This document shows positions 624 through 26,809 of a DNA stretch of 36,959 nt, piece by piece. The stretch covers positions 1 to 36,959 of the IMG/VR virus record IMGVR_UViG_3300045973_001487; one strand, given 5' to 3'. Both the position numbers and the translations under genes were made by a program. This DNA is from a virus. Numbering within the stretch: position 1 is the stretch's first letter; each line of letters begins with the position of its first letter. Under the pieces are notes generated by a model. It was not told the DNA's origin. It saw nothing but the letters and a program-made list of their open reading frames with translations, and did no database searches.

Positions 624-2054
624 TTATAGCACTTCGCCTGCGTGGTCAGCCAGACGCGAACGTTCGCCGCGTTGTAACGTGATGTGACCGGAATGCGGCC
701 AGCCCTTGAAGCGATCGACGACATAGGTCAGGCCGGAACTGCCCTCGGTCAGGTAAGGCGTATCGATTTGCGCAATATTACCCAGGCAGACCACCTTGGT
801 GCCGGGGCCGGCGCGGGTGACCAGGGTTTTCATCTGCTTCGGCGTCAGGTTCTGCGCCTCGTCGATGATCAGGAATTTCTTCAGGAAAGTCCGGCCACGC
901 ATGAAGTTCATTGACTTGACCTTGATCCGCGAACGGATAATGTCATTGGTTGCCGCCTTGCCCCAGTCGCCGCCGTAGGCGCCACTGCTCGCTTCATCGG
1001 TATGGGTGAGGACATCGAGGTTGTCTTCAAGCGCGCCCATCCACGGTGCCATCTTTTCTTCCTCGGTGCCGGGCAGGAAGCCGATGTCTTCACCCACCGG
1101 CACTGTGGCGCGGGTCATGATGATTTCGGCAAACAGCTTGGTTTCGAGTACCTGGGTCAGGGCGGAGGCCAGCGTCAGCAGGGTCTTGCCGGTACCAGCC
1201 TGACCAAGCAGGGTGACGAAGTCGATGTCGGGATTCATGAGCAGGTTCATCGCAAAATTCTGCTCGCGATTGCGCGCCATGATGCCCCAGACAGCGTTCT
1301 TCGGATGCGTGTAGTCGATCAGCGTTTCGAGGACGGCGGTCTTGCCGGCGGTTTCTTTGACGATGGCCGAAAAGCCGTCCTTTTCCAGCCAGACGCATTC
1401 ATTGACGAGCATCTGCGGGCAGAGCGGGCCGGTCACCTTGTAGTAGGTCCGGCTATCCTTCTTCCACGATTCCATGCCCTTGCCGTGTTTGTCCCAGAAA
1501 TTGTCGGGCAGGGCGCGGGTGCCGGTGTACAGGATGTCGGTATCCTCAAGCACCTTGTCGTTGAAATAATCTTCGGCGAGCAGGTTGAGGGCGCGCGACT
1601 TGATGCGCATGTTGATGTCTTTCGACACCAGGATGACCGGGCGCTTGGGGAATTTCTTCTGGAGGTGGATGACCACCGAGAGAATCTGGTTGTCGACCTT
1701 CGAGGTCGGCAGCCCCTGCGGCAGATCGGCGCTGATCGCTTCGGTCTGCAAGAAGAGACGGCCGCTGGCCAGCTTCTTCGATGGGGTGTAGAGATCGATG
1801 CCCAGGTCGATGTCGTCGTCGCCATTGCCGGCGAGCAGTTCATCAAGCGTGCGGGAGGTCTGGCGGGCATTGCGGGCAATTTCGGACATGCCCTTCTTGT
1901 GGTTGTCGAGTTCTTCCAGCGTCATGATGGGCAGGAAGACGTCATGCTCCTCAAAGCGGAAAAGACTGCTTGGGTCGTGCATCAGCACGTTGGTATCGAG
2001 GACGAAAATCTTGGTAACGGCGGGCTTCTTGATGGCTGCGGGCTTGCGCGGCAT
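624..2054 (-). CDS. phoH: PIN domain-PhoH family ATPase
   Basis: The 476-residue protein has an N-terminal PIN nuclease-like domain (IFVLDTNVLMHDP at 16-28, with further acidic residues at about 48-50 and VSKDINMR at 143-150). A PhoH P-loop ATPase domain follows, with Walker A GQAGTGKT at 284-291 and Walker B LLIDEAQ-like IIDEAQ near 396-401. Length and order match the YlaK/PhoH2-type PIN-PhoH proteins, which are linked to RNA handling and stress. It is a host chromosomal gene beside the bcp remnant, and the ATG at 2054 is the first good start. The exact cellular role of this class is not settled. Confidence 0.92.
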   Translation of the reverse strand: MPRKPAAIKKPAVTKIFVLDTNVLMHDPSSLFRFEEHDVFLPIMTLEELDNHKKGMSEIARNARQTSRTLDELLAGNGDDDIDLGIDLYTPSKKLASGRLFLQTEAISADLPQGLPTSKVDNQILSVVIHLQKKFPKRPVILVSKDINMRIKSRALNLLAEDYFNDKVLEDTDILYTGTRALPDNFWDKHGKGMESWKKDSRTYYKVTGPLCPQMLVNECVWLEKDGFSAIVKETAGKTAVLETLIDYTHPKNAVWGIMARNREQNFAMNLLMNPDIDFVTLLGQAGTGKTLLTLASALTQVLETKLFAEIIMTRATVPVGEDIGFLPGTEEEKMAPWMGALEDNLDVLTHTDEASSGAYGGDWGKAATNDIIRSRIKVKSMNFMRGRTFLKKFLIIDEAQNLTPKQMKTLVTRAGPGTKVVCLGNIAQIDTPYLTEGSSGLTYVVDRFKGWPHSGHITLQRGERSRLADHAGEVL

Positions 2055-2253: not shown

Positions 2254-2868
2254 TCAGGGTTTAGCTTTTTGCTGTGACAATTTCATACCCAAGTTTCTGG
2301 CAAGGGTGACGGAAACATATCCAAGACTCATCATGGCAAGAGTATCTTCGCCAAATTCTGCGATGGCAGCATTAACGCAAAATGAAACGACGCGACAATT
2401 CCATTTTTCGTATGGCCCACTTGCGTCTATTCGATCAACTGACATTTTGAAAGGGTGTCTTGATTTATCTATGACTAGCGGTATATTTGTCAATGAGCAC
2501 CTGCCTTGAGATTCAAGAATTAAATCTGAGTGATCTTGCTCAGTGAGATGAAAGCCAATTCCACGCTTTTTTGCACTTTGCTTCAATCCGCTATATTTCT
2601 GCTTTATAAATCCTGAACTTTTCATTTCGGAAAATTTTGCGTGCCATTCAGGATCGATTGACTCGATGACGTCAAGCAAATGAATTCCGGCTGCTTTTTT
2701 TGCGTTTAATTCGACGCCGTTTGAGTGCTCTGCAACAAATTTATCTCTAAACGAAATGGCCTTTGCCACATCGGTTTCCTTGGTCGATTTCCGTATGCGC
2801 TCAGTTCTAATGCGAATATCGATCCAGTAAATTTCATTTCTTTTAAACAGACCCCAAGTCTTTTTCAT
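2254..2868 (-). CDS. Integrase-associated protein: arm-type N-terminus joined to an HNH-like domain
   Basis: The N-terminal 30 residues (KRNEIYWIDIRIRTERIRKS) mirror the N-terminus of the adjacent integrase (KRGEVWWIDIRHQGRRIRRS), which is the arm-site-binding region. The C-terminal half has C124, then SVDRIDASGPYEKWN at 143-157 and N166. This is the pattern of divergent HNH/endonuclease VII-like domains (DRID...GY...N...N), although a Cys-His zinc set is not evident. The gene starts inside the end of the integrase gene (ATGA overlap) and is the last gene before the attachment site. Its sequence is AT-richer than its neighbours, which suggests transfer. It may nick DNA, help recombination or be a homing-type passenger; no known gene is recognised. 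Confidence 0.7.
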   Translation of the reverse strand: MKKTWGLFKRNEIYWIDIRIRTERIRKSTKETDVAKAISFRDKFVAEHSNGVELNAKKAAGIHLLDVIESIDPEWHAKFSEMKSSGFIKQKYSGLKQSAKKRGIGFHLTEQDHSDLILESQGRCSLTNIPLVIDKSRHPFKMSVDRIDASGPYEKWNCRVVSFCVNAAIAEFGEDTLAMMSLGYVSVTLARNLGMKLSQQKAKP

Positions 2869-3926
2869 TTTGTGCCCGTTGTCACGTTGTTAGGCACAAA
2901 TTTTAGCACGTTCGATAGGACTGGTGGCTTCACGTTATTGACGAATCCGGCGACGAAAGATGGTGCAAGGTGGGCATAACGCATGACCATTTCTATCTTA
3001 GCCCAGCCGCCCAATTTCTGCAGTACCTCGAGCGGTGTCCCGGCCATGACATGCCAGCTCGCCCAGGTGTGCCGCAGGTCGTGCCATTTGAAATTCGTTA
3101 TCTCGGCTTTCTTCAGAGCTGCGTACCAGTGACAGTTGCTGGCTGCCGGGATGGGCTCTCCTTCTGATCCTGGGAAAACCCAGCGCGGATGTTTTCCGGC
3201 CTGCTCGGCCAGTATCTGCATCGCGTCATCATTGAGCGGAACGAGCAGCGACTTGTTTGTCTTCACGTTATCAGCATGGACCCAAGCCTGGCGCATTGCC
3301 TGATTGACCTGGACCCATTCCAGGTGTGTGCAGTTGTCTTCGCGCAGACCGGTGGCCAGGGTGAATCGTGCGCAGGCCTTCCATGGTTCGGGCAGTGCTG
3401 CGATCAGCGCCTGGTGCTCCTCGCCTGACAGGTATCTGACCCGGCCGTTCGGCTCTCGGCGCTTGGCAATGTCGGGAACAACCTTGAGCCATCCCCACCG
3501 TTGGGCTTTTCTGAGAATTTTACCGAGGATGGCAGAATGGCGATTGATGGTGCTCGGTGATGTTTTTCGGCCTGTCTTGTGATTGACGATCACGTTGGCC
3601 CGTTCTTCCAGAAGCGTGGCGATCAGATCGCCGGTGATCTCAGTGAGATCTTTGCCCTGCAGCCTGGGCGTCAGCCAGTCGAGCATCTGGGCATCGTGCC
3701 ACAAGCCTGGCCGTCCAGATTCTTCGGATAGAAACCGCTTGATGGCTTCCTCCCATGTGTGATCTGGGAGTTCATCAAGATGCTCTTCGCGCCATAGCTC
3801 CGCCTTCAGGCGGTCGTGCAGCTCTTGGGCCTGCTTCTTATTACCTGTTTGAGCAGATCGCCTAATTCGGCGTCCTTGATGGCGGATGTCGATCCACCAG
3901 ACTTCGCCACGCTTGATGATCGGCAT
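2865..3926 (-). CDS. int: Tyrosine site-specific recombinase (phage integrase)
   Basis: The 353-residue protein has an N-terminal arm-binding segment (EVWWIDIRHQGRRIRRS), a SAM-like core-binding domain (about 55-145) and a C-terminal catalytic domain. Catalytic residues visible are R195 in ATGLRED, a Lys near 222-225, H282 and R285 in HDLRHT, W308 replacing the second His in LGGW, and the nucleophile Y317 in MRYAHL. It integrates and excises the phage, here at bcp. It overlaps the HTH gene upstream by 121 bases and the HNH-like gene downstream by 4 bases, so the three are probably translated together. The ATG at 3926 gives the usual N-terminus for this group. Confidence 0.95.
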   Translation of the reverse strand: MPIIKRGEVWWIDIRHQGRRIRRSAQTGNKKQAQELHDRLKAELWREEHLDELPDHTWEEAIKRFLSEESGRPGLWHDAQMLDWLTPRLQGKDLTEITGDLIATLLEERANVIVNHKTGRKTSPSTINRHSAILGKILRKAQRWGWLKVVPDIAKRREPNGRVRYLSGEEHQALIAALPEPWKACARFTLATGLREDNCTHLEWVQVNQAMRQAWVHADNVKTNKSLLVPLNDDAMQILAEQAGKHPRWVFPGSEGEPIPAASNCHWYAALKKAEITNFKWHDLRHTWASWHVMAGTPLEVLQKLGGWAKIEMVMRYAHLAPSFVAGFVNNVKPPVLSNVLKFVPNNVTTGTK

Positions 3927-5784: not shown

Positions 5785-6020
5785 TCTGAGGACTCCGGTT
5801 CTTCCGGAAATCCATCAACTGGAAGGTAGGCGGCGTAAAGGTCGCTGGTGCACTTGCGGTAGGCAGCAGGGACATTGATGCGAAGGTCGTATCGGATAGT
5901 CTGGTGGGCGGCGCATGTTTCGCGCCGAGCGCACCACTCGCCGGCCATGTGGCCATGAGCGAGGCAACGATTGATGCCGGCATCAAGCGGCATTGGTATT
6001 GGGGTTGCGGTGAAGTTCAT
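5781..6020 (-). CDS. Small Cys/His-containing phage protein, unknown
   Basis: A 79-residue protein with CLAHGHMAGEWCARRETCAAH near residues 19-39. Three Cys and three His in that stretch suggest a small metal-binding knuckle. It overlaps the reverse transcriptase stop codon (ATGA) and the next gene, so it is probably cotranslated directly after the DGR. No function is recognised, but its position makes it a possible DGR accessory. Confidence 0.6.
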   Translation of the reverse strand: MNFTATPIPMPLDAGINRCLAHGHMAGEWCARRETCAAHQTIRYDLRINVPAAYRKCTSDLYAAYLPVDGFPEEPESSE

Positions 6021-7138
6021 GCGGATCTCCGATAAGTTTTGGTCATGTCTGATTTGATGCAGTGGCCACGGCCGCGCAAAACGTTGGCGATCTGGGTGCG
6101 GTCGTGGTGGCTATGGCTGGCCTGGCGAAGCAGACCGAAGTAACTGTTGCCCGTCTGGAATAGGTCGGCAACGTCGATGGACTCAAGGCGGCTGATCGCA
6201 TCATTGAAAGTGCGGCGCCGAAGGTTTCGGCGATGCGGCTTGATGACCTGGCCGACGAAGTCAATGCCGCGGTCGATGGGCTGCAGGATAGTTTTCTTGG
6301 GATTGATGCGAGCGGCTAGTCTGTCGGCAAGTAGCTGCTCGATCTTGGCCTTCGCATCATTCAGCCACCTGGGCGATTCATGCAGCAGCACAAAGTCGTC
6401 TACGTAGCGGATGTAGTGCTTGCAGCGCAGCTCGCGCTTCACGAACTGATCGAGAACGTCGAGATAGACGTTCGCGAAGAACTGGCTGCTCAGGTTGCCA
6501 ATCGGCAGGCCTTTGTGGGCCGGGTGGTTGGTCAGCCGCTTGTGCGCCGGTACCAGGGCCAGCATTTCCGGATCGCCGTGCAGTTCGTAGTTCTGGCGCG
6601 GGTCATGAAAAAGCACAGTTTCAGTTAGCTGCAGCCACCAGTGCTCAGTAATGTGGCGAGCAAGCAGACGCTGCAGGATGTTCTTGTCGATGCTGACAAA
6701 GAAGTTGGCCAGGTCGAGCTTCAGGTAGAAGGCTGGCTTCGTCCAGTTCTGGGTAATGCTACGGGCCTTGGATTCAAGGCGCTCGGCGGCGTAGAGCGTC
6801 CCGCGACCTGGTATGCAGGCGCATGAGTCGGCAATAAATCGGGCGTAGAAAGCCGGTGCAATATGGTTGTGCAGCAAGTGATGCACGATGCGGTCGCGGA
6901 ACTGTGCGGCCCATACCTCGCGGGCCTTGGGTCGCGTGATGACAAAGCAGATCGAGCGACCGGGTTCATAGCTTCCGTCTTCGAGTTCGTCATGAAGATC
7001 CCGCAGATTGCGTTCCAGGTTGGCTTCAAAGGCCATCGCACTGGCGCTGTTGCGCTTAGTACGCCGGCAGTCGAAGTAAGCCTGGGTCAGTTCGGTGAAA
7101 GTGAAATCAGCGGGCGCTTTCCAATCTGCGGACGGCAC
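6017..7138 (-). CDS. Diversity-generating retroelement reverse transcriptase
   Basis: From a GTG at 7138 this is a 373-residue reverse transcriptase of the DGR (Brt-like) class. An N-terminal block (TELTQAYFDCRRTKRNS, about 16-31) precedes palm motif A LKLDLANFF (139-147). The DGR-typical IGNLSSQ motif (213-219) stands where retroviral enzymes have a QG motif. The catalytic YVDD box is at 245-248. It would copy the TR RNA into adenine-mutated cDNA, working with Avd. The conserved sequence starts before the first convenient ATG (7036), so initiation at GTG inside the TR, or further upstream at the ATG at 7369 that overlaps the end of avd, is likely. The frame stays open through the whole TR. 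No maturase or group II intron domain is visible. Confidence 0.93.
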   Translation of the reverse strand: MPSADWKAPADFTFTELTQAYFDCRRTKRNSASAMAFEANLERNLRDLHDELEDGSYEPGRSICFVITRPKAREVWAAQFRDRIVHHLLHNHIAPAFYARFIADSCACIPGRGTLYAAERLESKARSITQNWTKPAFYLKLDLANFFVSIDKNILQRLLARHITEHWWLQLTETVLFHDPRQNYELHGDPEMLALVPAHKRLTNHPAHKGLPIGNLSSQFFANVYLDVLDQFVKRELRCKHYIRYVDDFVLLHESPRWLNDAKAKIEQLLADRLAARINPKKTILQPIDRGIDFVGQVIKPHRRNLRRRTFNDAISRLESIDVADLFQTGNSYFGLLRQASHSHHDRTQIANVLRGRGHCIKSDMTKTYRRSA

Positions 7139-7221
7139 GAGCGCGGAGCTCGTTGTTCTTGTGGTTGTTGTTCTGGTTGCCGTTGTTGAAGTTCTGATAC
7201 CAGGCGTAGCCGGAATCGGAC
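7122..7221 (-). repeat. DGR template repeat (TR)
   Basis: This 100-bp segment is the non-variable template. Read on the minus strand in the target frame it is rich in AAC/AAG codons and encodes NFNNGNQNNNHKNNELRARA. Asn codons give the widest range of residues under adenine mutagenesis. It lies between avd and the RT core, as in the Bordetella phage BPP-1 element. The VR copies differ from it only at template adenines. Bases 7122-7152 are identical in TR and all VRs and contain the inverted repeat CGAGC-GCGGA-GCTCG at 7138-7152. Confidence 0.95.
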
Positions 7222-7361
7222 CAATCGTGCTTTCTACGTCGCCTTGCCGACTATTCAGCAGGGAAACTGCGCCGGACCTTTCGCGGCTGCTGCCGGAGGT
7301 CTCCGTGATACGCATGTCGGTGGCCTTGTGAGCCAGCGGCACGACCAGATTGAATGATCGC

Positions 7362-7736
7362 TCAGTCATGACGGCCGTGGCCTCCATGATGCGGGCGAGA
7401 AGCGGACTTGCGCCACCCATTGGCCTGCTTGCCGATGCTGGTGCTTTTCTCGATAGCCTGGGCGTAGGCGCCCAGCGAGATGAGTTGCTTGTCCTTGGCA
7501 AGACGGATGAGCAGTTCTGCAACCTGCAGGCGCTCAAGCAGTTCCATCAAGTGCGGCTCTTTGTCCTGTGCGACATTGGCGCGAAACACGAGCACGGTGA
7601 TCTCGATGCACTCCATCGCGATCTTCTCACCGATGGTGCGCTTGTAGTCACGGTTCATGTTCTTGACCATGTCAGACGACAAGCCAAGCAGGTCATAGGC
7701 CGCTTTGTAGATGGGCAGGGTGGTATGGGTAGCCAT
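7362..7736 (-). CDS. avd: DGR accessory variability determinant (Avd), four-helix-bundle protein
   Basis: A 124-residue, all-helical protein (TTLPIYKAAYDLLGLSSDMV, then NMNRDYKRTIGEKI and LLERLQVAELLIRLAKD). Length, helical pattern and location between target VR1 and the TR match Avd proteins, which form a basic pentameric barrel that binds the RT and TR RNA and is needed for mutagenic reverse transcription. The C-terminus is Lys/Arg/His-rich (GWRKSASRPHHGGHGRHD), fitting nucleic-acid contact. It begins 18 bases after the upstream target gene. An ATG in the RT frame (7369) overlaps its end, suggesting translational coupling to the RT. Confidence 0.9.
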   Translation of the reverse strand: MATHTTLPIYKAAYDLLGLSSDMVKNMNRDYKRTIGEKIAMECIEITVLVFRANVAQDKEPHLMELLERLQVAELLIRLAKDKQLISLGAYAQAIEKSTSIGKQANGWRKSASRPHHGGHGRHD

Positions 7737-24155: not shown

Positions 24156-25691
24156 ATGACAATACAGCTCACCCGCGCCACCCGGATCGCCGGCACCGTT
24201 ACCGCTGCTGGAACCCAGCTCACGCTGACCGAAGCGCTCGAAGCCGATCTGATCTACCAGGGCATCGCCACACGGGTGGGCGCAGCGCCGAACCAGTCCG
24301 GAAAGGTTCCGCTCTACGGCGAAACCAATCCCTTCACCGGGGGGCTTAGTTTCCCAGGAATTTCGAGCCTGAATACAATTGTGCAGCGACCGAAATCACG
24401 CGCATCTGCTCCTAGCGTTCTTGGTGGGACTTGTACATCTGTAGCCGTTGGCGCTATGGCAAAGTCTGTTCGGGCTATTTGGTCTGCTGACGCCGAAGTT
24501 ATTGGCGTACGAATCCACGTTATGAATGGCTCCCCGACCGGAACTTTGACCGTCGGCCCGTGCTGCGTTGCTCCTACTGCTCACATTGATAATTTGTATT
24601 CTCCAACTGGCGGTGATGGCGCATGGGTGGCTCTGCGGTTTGACAGTGGAGCCAATACGTCAAAAGCTATTCCAGCGTCTCCTGCGGCATCCGGTGGCGG
24701 TCATCGCAACCCTGACATTTCATTTGTGACCTCGGATTGGGCGGATATAACCTCAGTCACGCCGGTGCCCGGATCAAACAATTACAACCCGGCGCTGAAG
24801 CCTCTGTTTATCTTTGGAGCTGACTTCCTGACTTCCGGTTGGCCCGTTGCAAATGACGCAGCTTATGTTGGTCAGCCTGGAGCGAATTGGACATATCCGG
24901 GATCAACTACCGGACCCGGTTGCGAATACGGAAAAGTATGGCATTCGCGCTATGACTACGATGCCGCTGCAAAATCAACTGGTCGCAATAACGCAGGTGT
25001 TACAACCGCGAACTGGGGCGCAAATGGCGGCGCTGTTGCAGATTTCCCCGGCAGTGTTTTCTGGCCTGAGTTTCTTTACGCTAATGCTCAAGTGGTATCC
25101 GTCGGTGCGTGTGGTGATAGCACTGTCACTGGAACATCAGACGGCCTAAGCAATGACTCTTTCCTGAGTCACGCCTGCTACACAGCAACTGGAGGCGGTC
25201 TTGTATTTGTCCCATTCAATACCGCATGGTCTGGTTCTGCCTTTGCCGTAAAGCCCGATTACTCTATCTATACCACCTCCAAAAATCTTTTCAGAAACAT
25301 ATCTGTTCCAGACGTTCTATTGATCCAAACTTACACGCCAAACTCAAGTATCTCGACAGAGGCAGCAAATAACAGCAATTGGGGCGCGGCAATGGATATG
25401 GTTTCATGGTGCTACCAAAACCATGTTGTGCCCATCCTGCTCACTCCGGTGCCAACACCGACTGTTGCAAGCGCCGTAAATACGTGGCGAGTTATCCAGC
25501 GCGCACGTTGTTTGTCAATGCGCGATAAGGGCATTCTGGTGCTAGATCAGCAGTCAATTCTTGAAGACCCGGCAAGCCCGAATCAGTTTGCAGCAGGGAT
25601 GCACAAGGGAGACAACGTGCATCCGTCAGCTACGGCCCATCGTTTGATCGGAAAGGCGCTTGCACCGATTCTGTCGGCGCTGTACTCATAA
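24156..25691 (+). CDS. Chimeric protein: short phage head-type N-terminus joined to an SGNH/GDSL hydrolase
   Basis: The 511-residue product begins with about 50 residues in phage style (LTRATRIAGTVTAAGTQLTL, LEADLIYQGIATRVG), like a small head protein that usually stands alone at this place. A long SGNH hydrolase follows: block I GACGDST with S322, a middle TAWSGSAF, DVLLIQTYTPNSS with an Asn, and the last block GDNVHPSATAH with D486 and H489. The N-terminal part has backbone-like GC-rich codon use, while the part from about 24340 onward is AT-richer, suggesting a graft. AAGGAA precedes the ATG. It may deacylate a surface polysaccharide or cut an ester; the substrate is unknown. Confidence 0.8.
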   Translation: MTIQLTRATRIAGTVTAAGTQLTLTEALEADLIYQGIATRVGAAPNQSGKVPLYGETNPFTGGLSFPGISSLNTIVQRPKSRASAPSVLGGTCTSVAVGAMAKSVRAIWSADAEVIGVRIHVMNGSPTGTLTVGPCCVAPTAHIDNLYSPTGGDGAWVALRFDSGANTSKAIPASPAASGGGHRNPDISFVTSDWADITSVTPVPGSNNYNPALKPLFIFGADFLTSGWPVANDAAYVGQPGANWTYPGSTTGPGCEYGKVWHSRYDYDAAAKSTGRNNAGVTTANWGANGGAVADFPGSVFWPEFLYANAQVVSVGACGDSTVTGTSDGLSNDSFLSHACYTATGGGLVFVPFNTAWSGSAFAVKPDYSIYTTSKNLFRNISVPDVLLIQTYTPNSSISTEAANNSNWGAAMDMVSWCYQNHVVPILLTPVPTPTVASAVNTWRVIQRARCLSMRDKGILVLDQQSILEDPASPNQFAAGMHKGDNVHPSATAHRLIGKALAPILSALYS

Positions 25692-25725: not shown

Positions 25726-25911
25726 TTATTTTTCCGGCACTGGCTCCGTGTCTATCTTTTCACGGAGCCATGTCGATCCACCTAAAAGAAGATATTTGAC
25801 CTTTTGAGACTCAGTGACTTTGGTCGTGATAGGCACGGTCGCTTCGCCGGCCTTGATCGGTTTTCTGCCCTGGCCTCGACCAGCGCCACCCCATGATTTT
25901 TGTTCGCTCAT
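25726..25911 (-). CDS. Small ribbon-helix-helix-like phage protein
   Basis: From the ATG at 25911 the protein has 61 residues: MSEQKSWGGAGRGQGRKPIK, EATVPITTKVTESQKVKYLL, GGSTWLREKID. The Gly/Arg-rich start with the beta-strand and two-helix tail matches a common phage family with an RHH-like fold. It is divergent from the methyltransferase gene and against the direction of the late operon, and probably controls the intervening promoter region. An in-frame ATG at 25929 is less likely. Confidence 0.75.
   Translation of the reverse strand: MSEQKSWGGAGRGQGRKPIKAGEATVPITTKVTESQKVKYLLLGGSTWLREKIDTEPVPEK
25741..25770. repeat. Perfect 10-bp inverted repeat inside the RHH-like gene
   Basis: TGGCTCCGTG (25741-25750) and CACGGAGCCA (25761-25770) pair around a 10-base A/T-rich loop. 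It lies in the codons for WLREKIDTEP, so it could fold in both transcripts or bind a protein. Confidence 0.8.
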
Positions 25912-25930
25912 TTGGTAAGTGTAAATCAAG

Positions 25931-25948: not shown

Positions 25949-26001
25949 ACAAGATGAATTAGGATTACAATATCAAGTATCGAAACAGCAGGAATGGTGA
26001 G

Positions 26002-26802
26002 ATGAATGAGTTGGCTCTTTTCGCAGGCGCTGGTGGTGGAATACTCGGCGGAAAATTGCTTGGATGGAGAACCGTCTGCGCAGTTGAGCGTAATGCCTAC
26101 TGCGCACAAATTCTTGCACAACGGCAGAACGATGGATGCCTCCAGCCTTTCCCGATATGGTCTGACGTGTGCAGTTTTGACGGACGGCCATGGCGAGGCA
26201 TTATTGATGTCGTATCTGGCGGGTTTCCGTGCCAAGACATCAGTATTGCCGGTAAAGGCAAAGGTCTCGACGGGGATCGTTCCGGCCTCTGGTCTGAGAT
26301 GGCCAGGATCATTGGCGAAGTACGACCAAGATACGCGTTCGTGGAAAACAGCCCCATGCTTACTTCTCGGGGACTCGGAAGAGTTCTCGGCGACCTGGCC
26401 GAACTCGGGTATGACACGGACAGGGATGTCTTATCCGCGTCAGACATTGGCGCCTGCCAGCAAAGGAAACGCCTCTGGATTGTGGCGAACTCCGTCAGCG
26501 ACGATTGTGGATTCAAAGTCCAACGTGACGAAGCTCACAGGGAGAACACCGAAAGACCCACAAGTAGGACTGGCGGATCAGGTAGTAGCTGCCGACCGCT
26601 TACTATGGATTCCCCCAACGGAAAGCTCCAGCCCTTTGGACTTGGACGCAGATTTGCTGAGCCGTGGGCAAATGAACCCCCAGTGGGGAGAATGGCTAAT
26701 GGGGTGGATTATCGGGTGGACAGACTTAAAGCCATTGGGAATGGACAAGTTCCATCAGTGGCGGCAACAGCATTCCGAATGCTTTCTAATCCCCCAAACT
26801 GA
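26002..26802 (+). CDS. DNA (cytosine-5) methyltransferase
   Basis: The 266-residue enzyme has all main C5-MTase blocks: I FAGAGGG (7-13, SAM binding), IV GGFPCQDIS (C77 is the catalytic nucleophile), VI VENSP (114-118, ENV-like), VIII QQRKRLWIVA (153-162), and X GNGQVP (246-251). The target recognition part (about 170-235) is short, as in phage enzymes. It probably protects phage DNA from host restriction; its site cannot be read from the sequence. The gene is a separate cassette with its own regulator before it and terminator after it. Most of its length is also read in another frame (next entry). Confidence 0.95.
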   Translation: MNELALFAGAGGGILGGKLLGWRTVCAVERNAYCAQILAQRQNDGCLQPFPIWSDVCSFDGRPWRGIIDVVSGGFPCQDISIAGKGKGLDGDRSGLWSEMARIIGEVRPRYAFVENSPMLTSRGLGRVLGDLAELGYDTDRDVLSASDIGACQQRKRLWIVANSVSDDCGFKVQRDEAHRENTERPTSRTGGSGSSCRPLTMDSPNGKLQPFGLGRRFAEPWANEPPVGRMANGVDYRVDRLKAIGNGQVPSVAATAFRMLSNPPN

Positions 26803-26809
26803 TTTCTAA
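26132..26809 (+). CDS. Conserved phage protein overprinted on the methyltransferase gene
   Basis: A second frame is open from 26006 to 26809 and, from the ATG at 26132, encodes 225 residues that look like a real protein: MDASSLSRYGLT, SYLAGFRAKTS, GSLAKYDQDTRSWKTAPCLL, SEEFSATWPNSGM, and a C-terminus MNPQWGEWLMGWIIGWTDLK plus PLGMDKFHQWRQQHS. These blocks match, from memory, a phage family often found beside C5-methyltransferases. The GNGQVP codons of the enzyme give GMDKFH in this frame. No function is known; it may modify or support the methyltransferase. No clear ribosome site is seen, so translation might be coupled or weak. Confidence 0.7.
   Translation: MDASSLSRYGLTCAVLTDGHGEALLMSYLAGFRAKTSVLPVKAKVSTGIVPASGLRWPGSLAKYDQDTRSWKTAPCLLLGDSEEFSATWPNSGMTRTGMSYPRQTLAPASKGNASGLWRTPSATIVDSKSNVTKLTGRTPKDPQVGLADQVVAADRLLWIPPTESSSPLDLDADLLSRGQMNPQWGEWLMGWIIGWTDLKPLGMDKFHQWRQQHSECFLIPQTDF

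Follow-up and report, generated by a model that had tools for sequence, protein, structure and literature searches.

The locus described here raises the question of why a phage gene for a C5-cytosine methyltransferase should carry a second open reading frame over almost its entire length, and whether the two frames specify parts of one enzyme. The window, i.e., the whole stretch of 36,959 nucleotides that was analyzed (IMG/VR record IMGVR_UViG_3300045973_001487), resembles a temperate phage or prophage, as indicated by genes for an integrase, an S24 repressor, a primase, a terminase and a portal protein, together with genes for a head protein, head closure, a tail terminator and the major tail protein. 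The methyltransferase pair is located between an ORF of 511 aa and the head-closure gene. The original prediction had assigned 225 residues to the second protein; the second frame does exist on the same strand, but it extends over 267 codons from an ATG. The layout is as follows:

26002-26802, plus strand: alpha ORF (frame A), catalytic chain of a C5-cytosine methyltransferase, 266 aa.
26006-26809, plus strand: beta ORF (frame B, +1 relative to frame A), conserved second protein, 267 aa, ATG start.
25990-26008, plus strand: start cassette common to both ORFs, with AGGA at 25990-25993, GGTG at 25996-25999, the alpha ATG at 26002 and the beta ATG at 26006.

Several neighboring genes are recorded here in their own right. 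The 511-aa ORF (24156-25691, between the head gene and the pair) and a 67-aa ORF on the minus strand directly upstream of the pair (25726-25929) are both without a PHROG match. The early region of the prophage contains a reverse transcriptase of 506 aa (RVT_1, 3.6e-16; 6017-7537, minus strand), which may belong to a retron, a diversity-generating element or a defence gene, and a gene for a PhoH/PIN_4 protein (624-2054, minus strand) adjoins the integrase gene (2865-3926) and may lie to the left of the attachment site, in host DNA.

The two ORFs overlap by 797 nt on one strand, and their starts are combined in the sequence ATGAATG, the beta ATG lying 4 nt downstream of that of alpha. In the window, AGGA is located 8 nt before the alpha ATG and GGTG 6 nt before the beta ATG. 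Tandem starts of this kind, with the beta start codon 4 nt past that of alpha, were found at 143 of 185 non-redundant loci including the window, the alpha starts being assigned by a script. Five loci without a start at the usual place (L008, L022, L023, L028 and L034; relatives are referred to by such numbers throughout) were given the alignment start, and the alpha start of L071 was set to it by hand. Among the 143 tandem-start loci, beta begins with ATG in 136 and alpha with GTG or TTG in 62, and a match to AGGAGG of at least 5 of 6 bases is present upstream in 89, as compared to 781 of 9250 random windows. The commonest position of this Shine-Dalgarno match is 4 nt before the alpha start, which is equivalent to 8 nt before the beta start. 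Internal beta starts are present in the relatives L003, L004, L089 and L090.

That frame B is a gene is indicated by its conservation. A tblastn search with beta matched 41 phage records. In the viral loci selected by alpha (L006-L085, the best 80 of 160 confirmed, which are closely related to one another), 80 of 80 have a +1 frame that stays open across 94% or more of alpha and encodes a relative of beta (tblastn E-values of 2.5e-26 or better); the +2 frame contains 5 to 29 stops. Starting from beta, an alpha frame overlapping in the same phase was found in 160 of 160 loci, which represent the best 80 of at least 469 viral and the best 80 of 262 bacterial or archaeal ones, some of the contigs being identical to alpha-selected ones (e.g., L098 and L040). 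Because these sets are top-scoring subsets, distant or degenerate forms are under-sampled. The genomic loci, many of which are probably prophages, are distributed over proteobacteria, Verrucomicrobia, Planctomycetota, Nitrospirota, Actinomycetota, Spirochaetia, Patescibacteria and one Euryarchaeota MAG, as judged from the record titles, in which the labels of MAGs may be wrong.

The same conclusion is reached by shuffling synonymous codons. For the window alpha, the shuffled versions contain a mean of 3.86 stops in the beta frame versus 0 observed, and none of 200 shuffles was stop-free. Over 240 genes that were long enough and contained no ambiguous or stop codons, 4.07 stops are expected per gene in the beta frame and 208 genes have none, while the other same-strand frame shows 15.6 stops versus 12.6 expected. 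With alpha held fixed, the identity between betas exceeds the shuffle null in four successive regions, namely in 578 of 600, 589 of 600, 456 of 506 and 588 of 591 pairs (observed/null identities of 0.488/0.315, 0.421/0.291, 0.226/0.120 and, at the C-terminal end, 0.593/0.280), as evaluated for a random 600 of the 10762 pairs among 185 non-redundant sequences, which are not independent of one another. The original prediction of two conserved proteins overprinted on a methyltransferase locus, the second of them no random shadow of the first, is thus borne out by the database searches as well as by the synonymous-site analysis, in which frame B is conserved beyond the null.

The alpha chain is readily recognized. 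It matches PF00145 of Pfam with an E-value of 2.6e-32, albeit over residues 4-169 only, and the PHROGs family phrog_363 (DNA methyltransferase, 7e-65). A profile of 43 alpha relatives aligns with M.HhaI and M.HaeIII over positions 1-167 only, ending after motif VIII, and no motif IX was found in alpha by Pfam, by the profile comparison with PDB sequences or in the alignment of relatives. Alpha is composed of motifs I-VIII plus X and does not show the arrangement of motifs I-X in a single frame. The blocks below are taken from the alignment of relatives:

26017-26052, plus strand: alpha motif I, LFAGAGGGILGG.
26218-26244, plus strand: alpha motif IV, GGFPCQDIS, with the catalytic Cys.
26341-26361, plus strand: alpha motif VI, VENSPML.
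26458-26487, plus strand: alpha motif VIII, QQRKRLWIVA.
26722-26775, plus strand: alpha motif X, RLKAIGNGQVPSVAATAF.

The alpha segment that links motifs VIII and X varies among the relatives and is of low complexity. Stops within alpha occur in some of them (L159, L173, L205, L229 and the E. coli prophage L086). In L205, L173 and L159, the stop is placed just past motif VIII and motif X is still open downstream in the alpha frame, so these genes may represent either an intermediate or a gene in decay.

The beta chain is recognized by PHROGs as a member of phrog_1008 (3.5e-19), which carries the label DNA methyltransferase and is matched by 43 of 43 beta relatives, and of phrog_26627 (1e-12). 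No Pfam or NCBIfam family was found for it or for the longer betas of L231, L244 and L246, comparison with PDB sequences gave chance matches only, both as a profile and as a single sequence, and AlphaFold2 modeled beta alone with a pLDDT of 58 and a pTM of 0.22. Its features are:

26306-26350, plus strand: beta conserved block, GSLAKYDQDTRSWKT (alignment of relatives; constraint on both frames here).
26387-26434, plus strand: beta conserved block, SATWPNSGMTRTGMSY (alignment of relatives).
26480-26587, plus strand: beta putative target-recognition module, LWRTPSATIVDSKSNVTKLTGRTPKDPQVGLADQVV (77% identity to the L003 module; codon-position test).
26672-26728, plus strand: beta motif IX block, MNPQWGEWLMGWIIGWTDL (colinear with Dcm RRLTPRECARLMGF; model of a fused relative).
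26726-26761, plus strand: beta C-terminal block, LKPLGMDKFHQW, overlying alpha motif X (alignment of relatives).

The blocks that had been attributed to a phage family when the locus was first noticed, such as EWLMGW, are indeed family blocks in the beta alignments, and the alpha codons for GNGQVP (26737-26754) do yield GMDKFH in beta, in agreement with the original claim. The block LNPxWVEWLMGWPxGWTDL near the end of beta is almost invariant in 122 sequences and colinear with RRLTPRECARLMGF, which is motif IX in Dcm of E. coli; the model of a fused relative described below places the block in the C-terminal region of M.HhaI. Since alpha is devoid of motif IX and beta contains it, beta is best regarded as a second subunit rather than as an unrelated protein. 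A rough census of motif patterns over 270 loci, in 13 of which no catalytic ORF was called, showed motif X in alpha and motif IX in beta at 217 loci, and motif IX in the alpha frame at only 6, all of them of the fused or TRD-only types.

The answer which we favor, with a probability of roughly 86%, is that one C5-cytosine methyltransferase is encoded as two polypeptides in two overlapping frames, alpha being the catalytic chain and beta apparently carrying the target-recognition (TRD) region and motif IX. Along the DNA, the blocks follow the canonical order I-VIII, TRD, IX and X, divided between the two frames. Alpha would supply the AdoMet-binding and catalytic motifs I-VIII plus motif X, and beta the small sequence-reading part, in which motif IX comes after at least one TRD module with a length of about 39 aa. 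Ribosomes would initiate both chains at the starts 4 nt apart, probably via a single Shine-Dalgarno region, and the chains would then assemble into one active enzyme, as suggested by the split of the motifs and the poor fold of beta alone. By analogy to the fold family, the beta module would read the target and motif IX would fix the module to the catalytic domain, and the motifs present in alpha predict methylation at C5 of cytosine. As to its role, the pair is isolated within the head and tail genes, and its probable function is to modify the phage DNA. Of the many window ORFs, 20 were scanned, each against a single library, and none matched a restriction enzyme; in the prophage setting, the mark may protect against host restriction.

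A reservation concerns the window copy itself, which could belong to this enzyme type and still be decaying or inactive. The alpha substitutions W141R and H153Q and the beta substitution P235I affect positions conserved in at least 90% of the relatives, and the window enzyme may therefore be weakened. Relatives such as L011, L040 and Salmonella phage S9-5 do not share these three changes. Both frames are nevertheless open over their full length, and the starts as well as the motifs PCQ, VENS, GNGQVP and EWLMGW are intact, and we regard decay or inactivity of this copy as unlikely, though not negligible.

The assignment of target recognition to beta in the proposed two-chain enzyme can be followed in the modules themselves. 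The beta modules are located between motifs VIII and X and open with a PTP-like motif, successive modules being a median of 39 aa apart; a strict pattern finds 0, 1, 2, 3 and 4 modules in 10, 62, 77, 26 and 4 of 179 betas, respectively. The longest betas seen, those of L274 (1532-2563) and L276 (1469-2518), contain five and six PTP-type modules by a simple count and are candidates for multispecific enzymes. The frame under constraint was determined from codon positions in 202 pairs among the 179 betas. Within the module region, the differences amount to 0.455 at the beta wobble base versus 0.233 at that of alpha, and the identity is 0.68 for beta and 0.48 for alpha. The pattern is reversed over beta codons 61-100 (B61-100), with 0.292 at the alpha wobble versus 0.065 at the beta wobble base and beta weakly constrained, which indicates that the test can detect either frame. 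Codons B101-145 and the motif IX block show constraint on both frames, and the first 60 beta codons are constrained as well (alpha-wobble difference of 0.098 versus 0.292 over B61-100). The window module is 77% identical to that of L003 over 35 aa; outside the module, the two betas are 26-29% and the two alphas 34-36% identical. Over the module, 27 of 35 residues are the same in beta and 14 of 34 in alpha, and 21 of the 32 differences fall on the beta wobble base. This looks like a recognition module which has been exchanged, or strongly conserved, as a beta protein, and the recognition region most likely maps to beta, being conserved there while alpha is not. Because the models of beta alone and of the module are poor, the case for the TRD role is built on where the modules lie, on the frame that is constrained there and on their exchange.

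The motif assignment, as read from the sequences, holds apart from the resemblance to Dcm, because relatives are available in which the blocks are distributed differently. In L231 (Paraburkholderia), L246 (a Spirochaetia MAG) and L244 (a Euryarchaeota MAG), alpha ends just past motif VIII and beta carries motif IX followed by motif X. The same split is present in L263, in gp91/gp90 of mycobacteriophage Zaka, which overlap by 179 nt, and in gp42/gp43 of Arthrobacter phage RedFox, which adjoin each other. In L260, L261 and L264, motifs I-VIII, IX and X are all in alpha and the +1 frame holds TRD modules only, and in two fused forms, L262 and L257 (phage PFR1), motif VIII is followed in the alpha frame by the last module, motif IX and motif X. 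An alpha-frame module of L262 shares 57% identity over 49 aa with a +1-frame module of L264 (E-value of 2e-18), suggesting that the amino acid sequence is kept and not the frame. The fused chain of L262 was modeled with a pTM of 0.75 and pLDDT values above 90 for both the catalytic part and the IX-X segment, but below 50 in the module region. The model aligns with M.HhaI with a Z-score of 23.8 and an rmsd of 3.3 for 242 aligned residues (model 1-346 to chain 11-321), and the matches listed by VIA-align are C5-methyltransferases only, although other folds may exist beyond those listed.

The overlap has apparently left its own traces in these proteins. When the beta block LNPxWVEWLMGWPxGWTD is read one frame back, the result is the conserved alpha block EPxVGRVADGVAxRVD that precedes motif X, which implies that each block shapes the other. 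Remnants of this alpha block are found under the motif IX of beta in L231, L244 and L246, where alpha ends earlier and beta has its own motif X farther along; this suggests that the split forms arose from nested ancestors. Two further arrangements may be recorded in passing. L268 (1378-2672) contains motifs I-VI and four modules in one frame and motifs VIII, IX and X in another frame past a run of G, which could reflect a sequencing error or else a shift of frame, either phase-variable or programmed. The Propionibacterium-type phage contigs L258 and L259 (ORF from 142) harbor an intein-like insertion between P-C and Q of the catalytic PCQ, of the form GGSPC-FVAGTSVLTHDG...HSFIAAGIVVHN-CQDLS, in a methyltransferase closely related to the fused PFR1 enzyme.

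The canonical order of the blocks and the fused relatives L257 and L262 would also be in accord with a single chain produced by two programmed frameshifts, one of +1 after motif VIII to read the TRD and motif IX and one back again for motif X, which would yield a standard C5-methyltransferase. However, the separate beta start 4 nt past that of alpha and the constraint on the first 60 beta codons are needless for a shift in the middle of the gene, the Zaka and RedFox genes are separately started, and M.EcoHK31I is made up of two polypeptides (PMC3404938). A double frameshift therefore appears quite improbable. Slightly less credit still is given to the idea that beta, although a real protein, serves some other function, e.g., as a regulator, an anti-restriction protein or a nuclease inhibitor, and overlaps alpha by happenstance. 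The missing Pfam family and the lack of a confident fold of beta alone would agree with it, but motif IX is absent from alpha and present in beta, the betas of relatives carry both IX and X or are fused in frame to alpha, and each of the 160 beta-selected loci (the best 80 viral and the best 80 of 262 genomic ones) contained alpha as well. The notion that frame B is a shadow kept open by the composition and codon use of alpha, which might appeal to the weak constraint over B61-100 and to the passive conservation of overlapping frames (null identity of 0.12-0.32), is rejected by the stop shuffle, by the identity null in all four regions and by the differences at the beta wobble base in the module region, unless the null is badly wrong.

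A methyltransferase divided between two overlapping chains has consequences for annotation. Each of six records behind the beta matches shows only one annotated CDS across the overlap, and RefSeq labels one E. coli copy (L086) as a pseudogene, with the internal stop flagged. Where two frames overlap, gene callers retain only one, so that many of the phage methyltransferases regarded as "orphan" are probably annotated as half of an enzyme. If such an annotated alpha is cloned by itself, failure or a loss of specificity is to be expected and, if the modules read DNA, the specificity must be predicted from the frame that is not annotated. The overlapping products would here be parts of one enzyme with a known fold, and natural nested, split, TRD-only and fused relatives should make the long-standing question of how overlapping pairs originate and are resolved open to testing.

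Annotators have already met such a nested pair: gp55 and gp56 of the Paenibacillus larvae phage Honeybear overlap in this way and were hand-annotated as two DNA-cytosine methyltransferases. In the accessible part of the respective paper, gp56 is marked "Not called by any programs" and no comment on the overlap of such gene pairs was found (PMC6070908). The accessible part of a paper on Pectobacterium phages mentions the bias of gene callers against overlaps, for Rz1 and not for methyltransferases (PMC11445585). No account of the nested family or its frame arrangement was found in the literature searched, which was mostly without subscription papers and the primary papers on M.EcoHK31I, and because of this limited coverage the negative result is weak evidence of novelty.

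Among the known enzymes, M.HhaI, M.HaeIII and Dcm share the motif order and the fold, but have all motifs in a single frame. The M.SPRI-type methyltransferases of Bacillus phages are single chains with several TRDs in a row and are multispecific. The family described here resembles them in that several modules, each with a length of about 40 aa, separate motifs VIII and IX; here, the modules are located in the second frame and are of putative specificity. The closest parallel is M.EcoHK31I, whose beta chain (176 aa) is encoded in another frame within the alpha gene (309 aa) and is apparently short, with an internal start; both polypeptides are required for methylation, and the specificity is YGGCCR. 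The enzyme was reportedly described by Lee, Kam and Shaw in 1995 (Nucleic Acids Res 23:103). In PMC3404938, M.EcoHK31I is presented as a two-polypeptide C5-methyltransferase with motifs I-VIII and X on the larger and motif IX on the smaller chain, the predicted TRD being assigned to the larger subunit, and M.AquI (CYCGRG) as a naturally split C5-methyltransferase. The window pair agrees with M.EcoHK31I in its large chain with I-VIII and X but without IX, in the placement of IX on a second polypeptide and in the use of another frame of the same gene. In contrast to the short beta of M.EcoHK31I, the window beta spans the whole of alpha with its 267 codons and starts 4 nt later, the module region of its family is assigned to beta by frame-specific constraint instead of to the larger subunit, and no partner endonuclease was seen among the window neighbors scanned. 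The relatives L231, L244, L246 and L263 as well as the Zaka and RedFox pairs show the split of M.AquI (a first chain with I-VIII and a second with TRD, IX and X), whereas the window has motif X on alpha and nested instead of tandem genes.

Taken further, the family may represent a widespread class of phage and bacterial methyltransferases in which a separate, swappable sequence-reading half is overprinted on a whole catalytic gene and started in tandem from one ribosome-binding site, with modules (0-4 per protein as counted by a simple pattern) exchanged between distant enzymes as frame-B proteins, and with TRD, IX and X moved between the frames to give nested, split, TRD-only and fused forms; to this broader view we give even odds. 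Motif IX on a small chain, as in M.EcoHK31I, and the split of IX-X, as in M.AquI, are already known, whereas the full-length nesting with tandem starts, the breadth of the family, the location of the predicted recognition modules in the second frame and the switching of blocks between frames, as judged from sequence, appear to be new.
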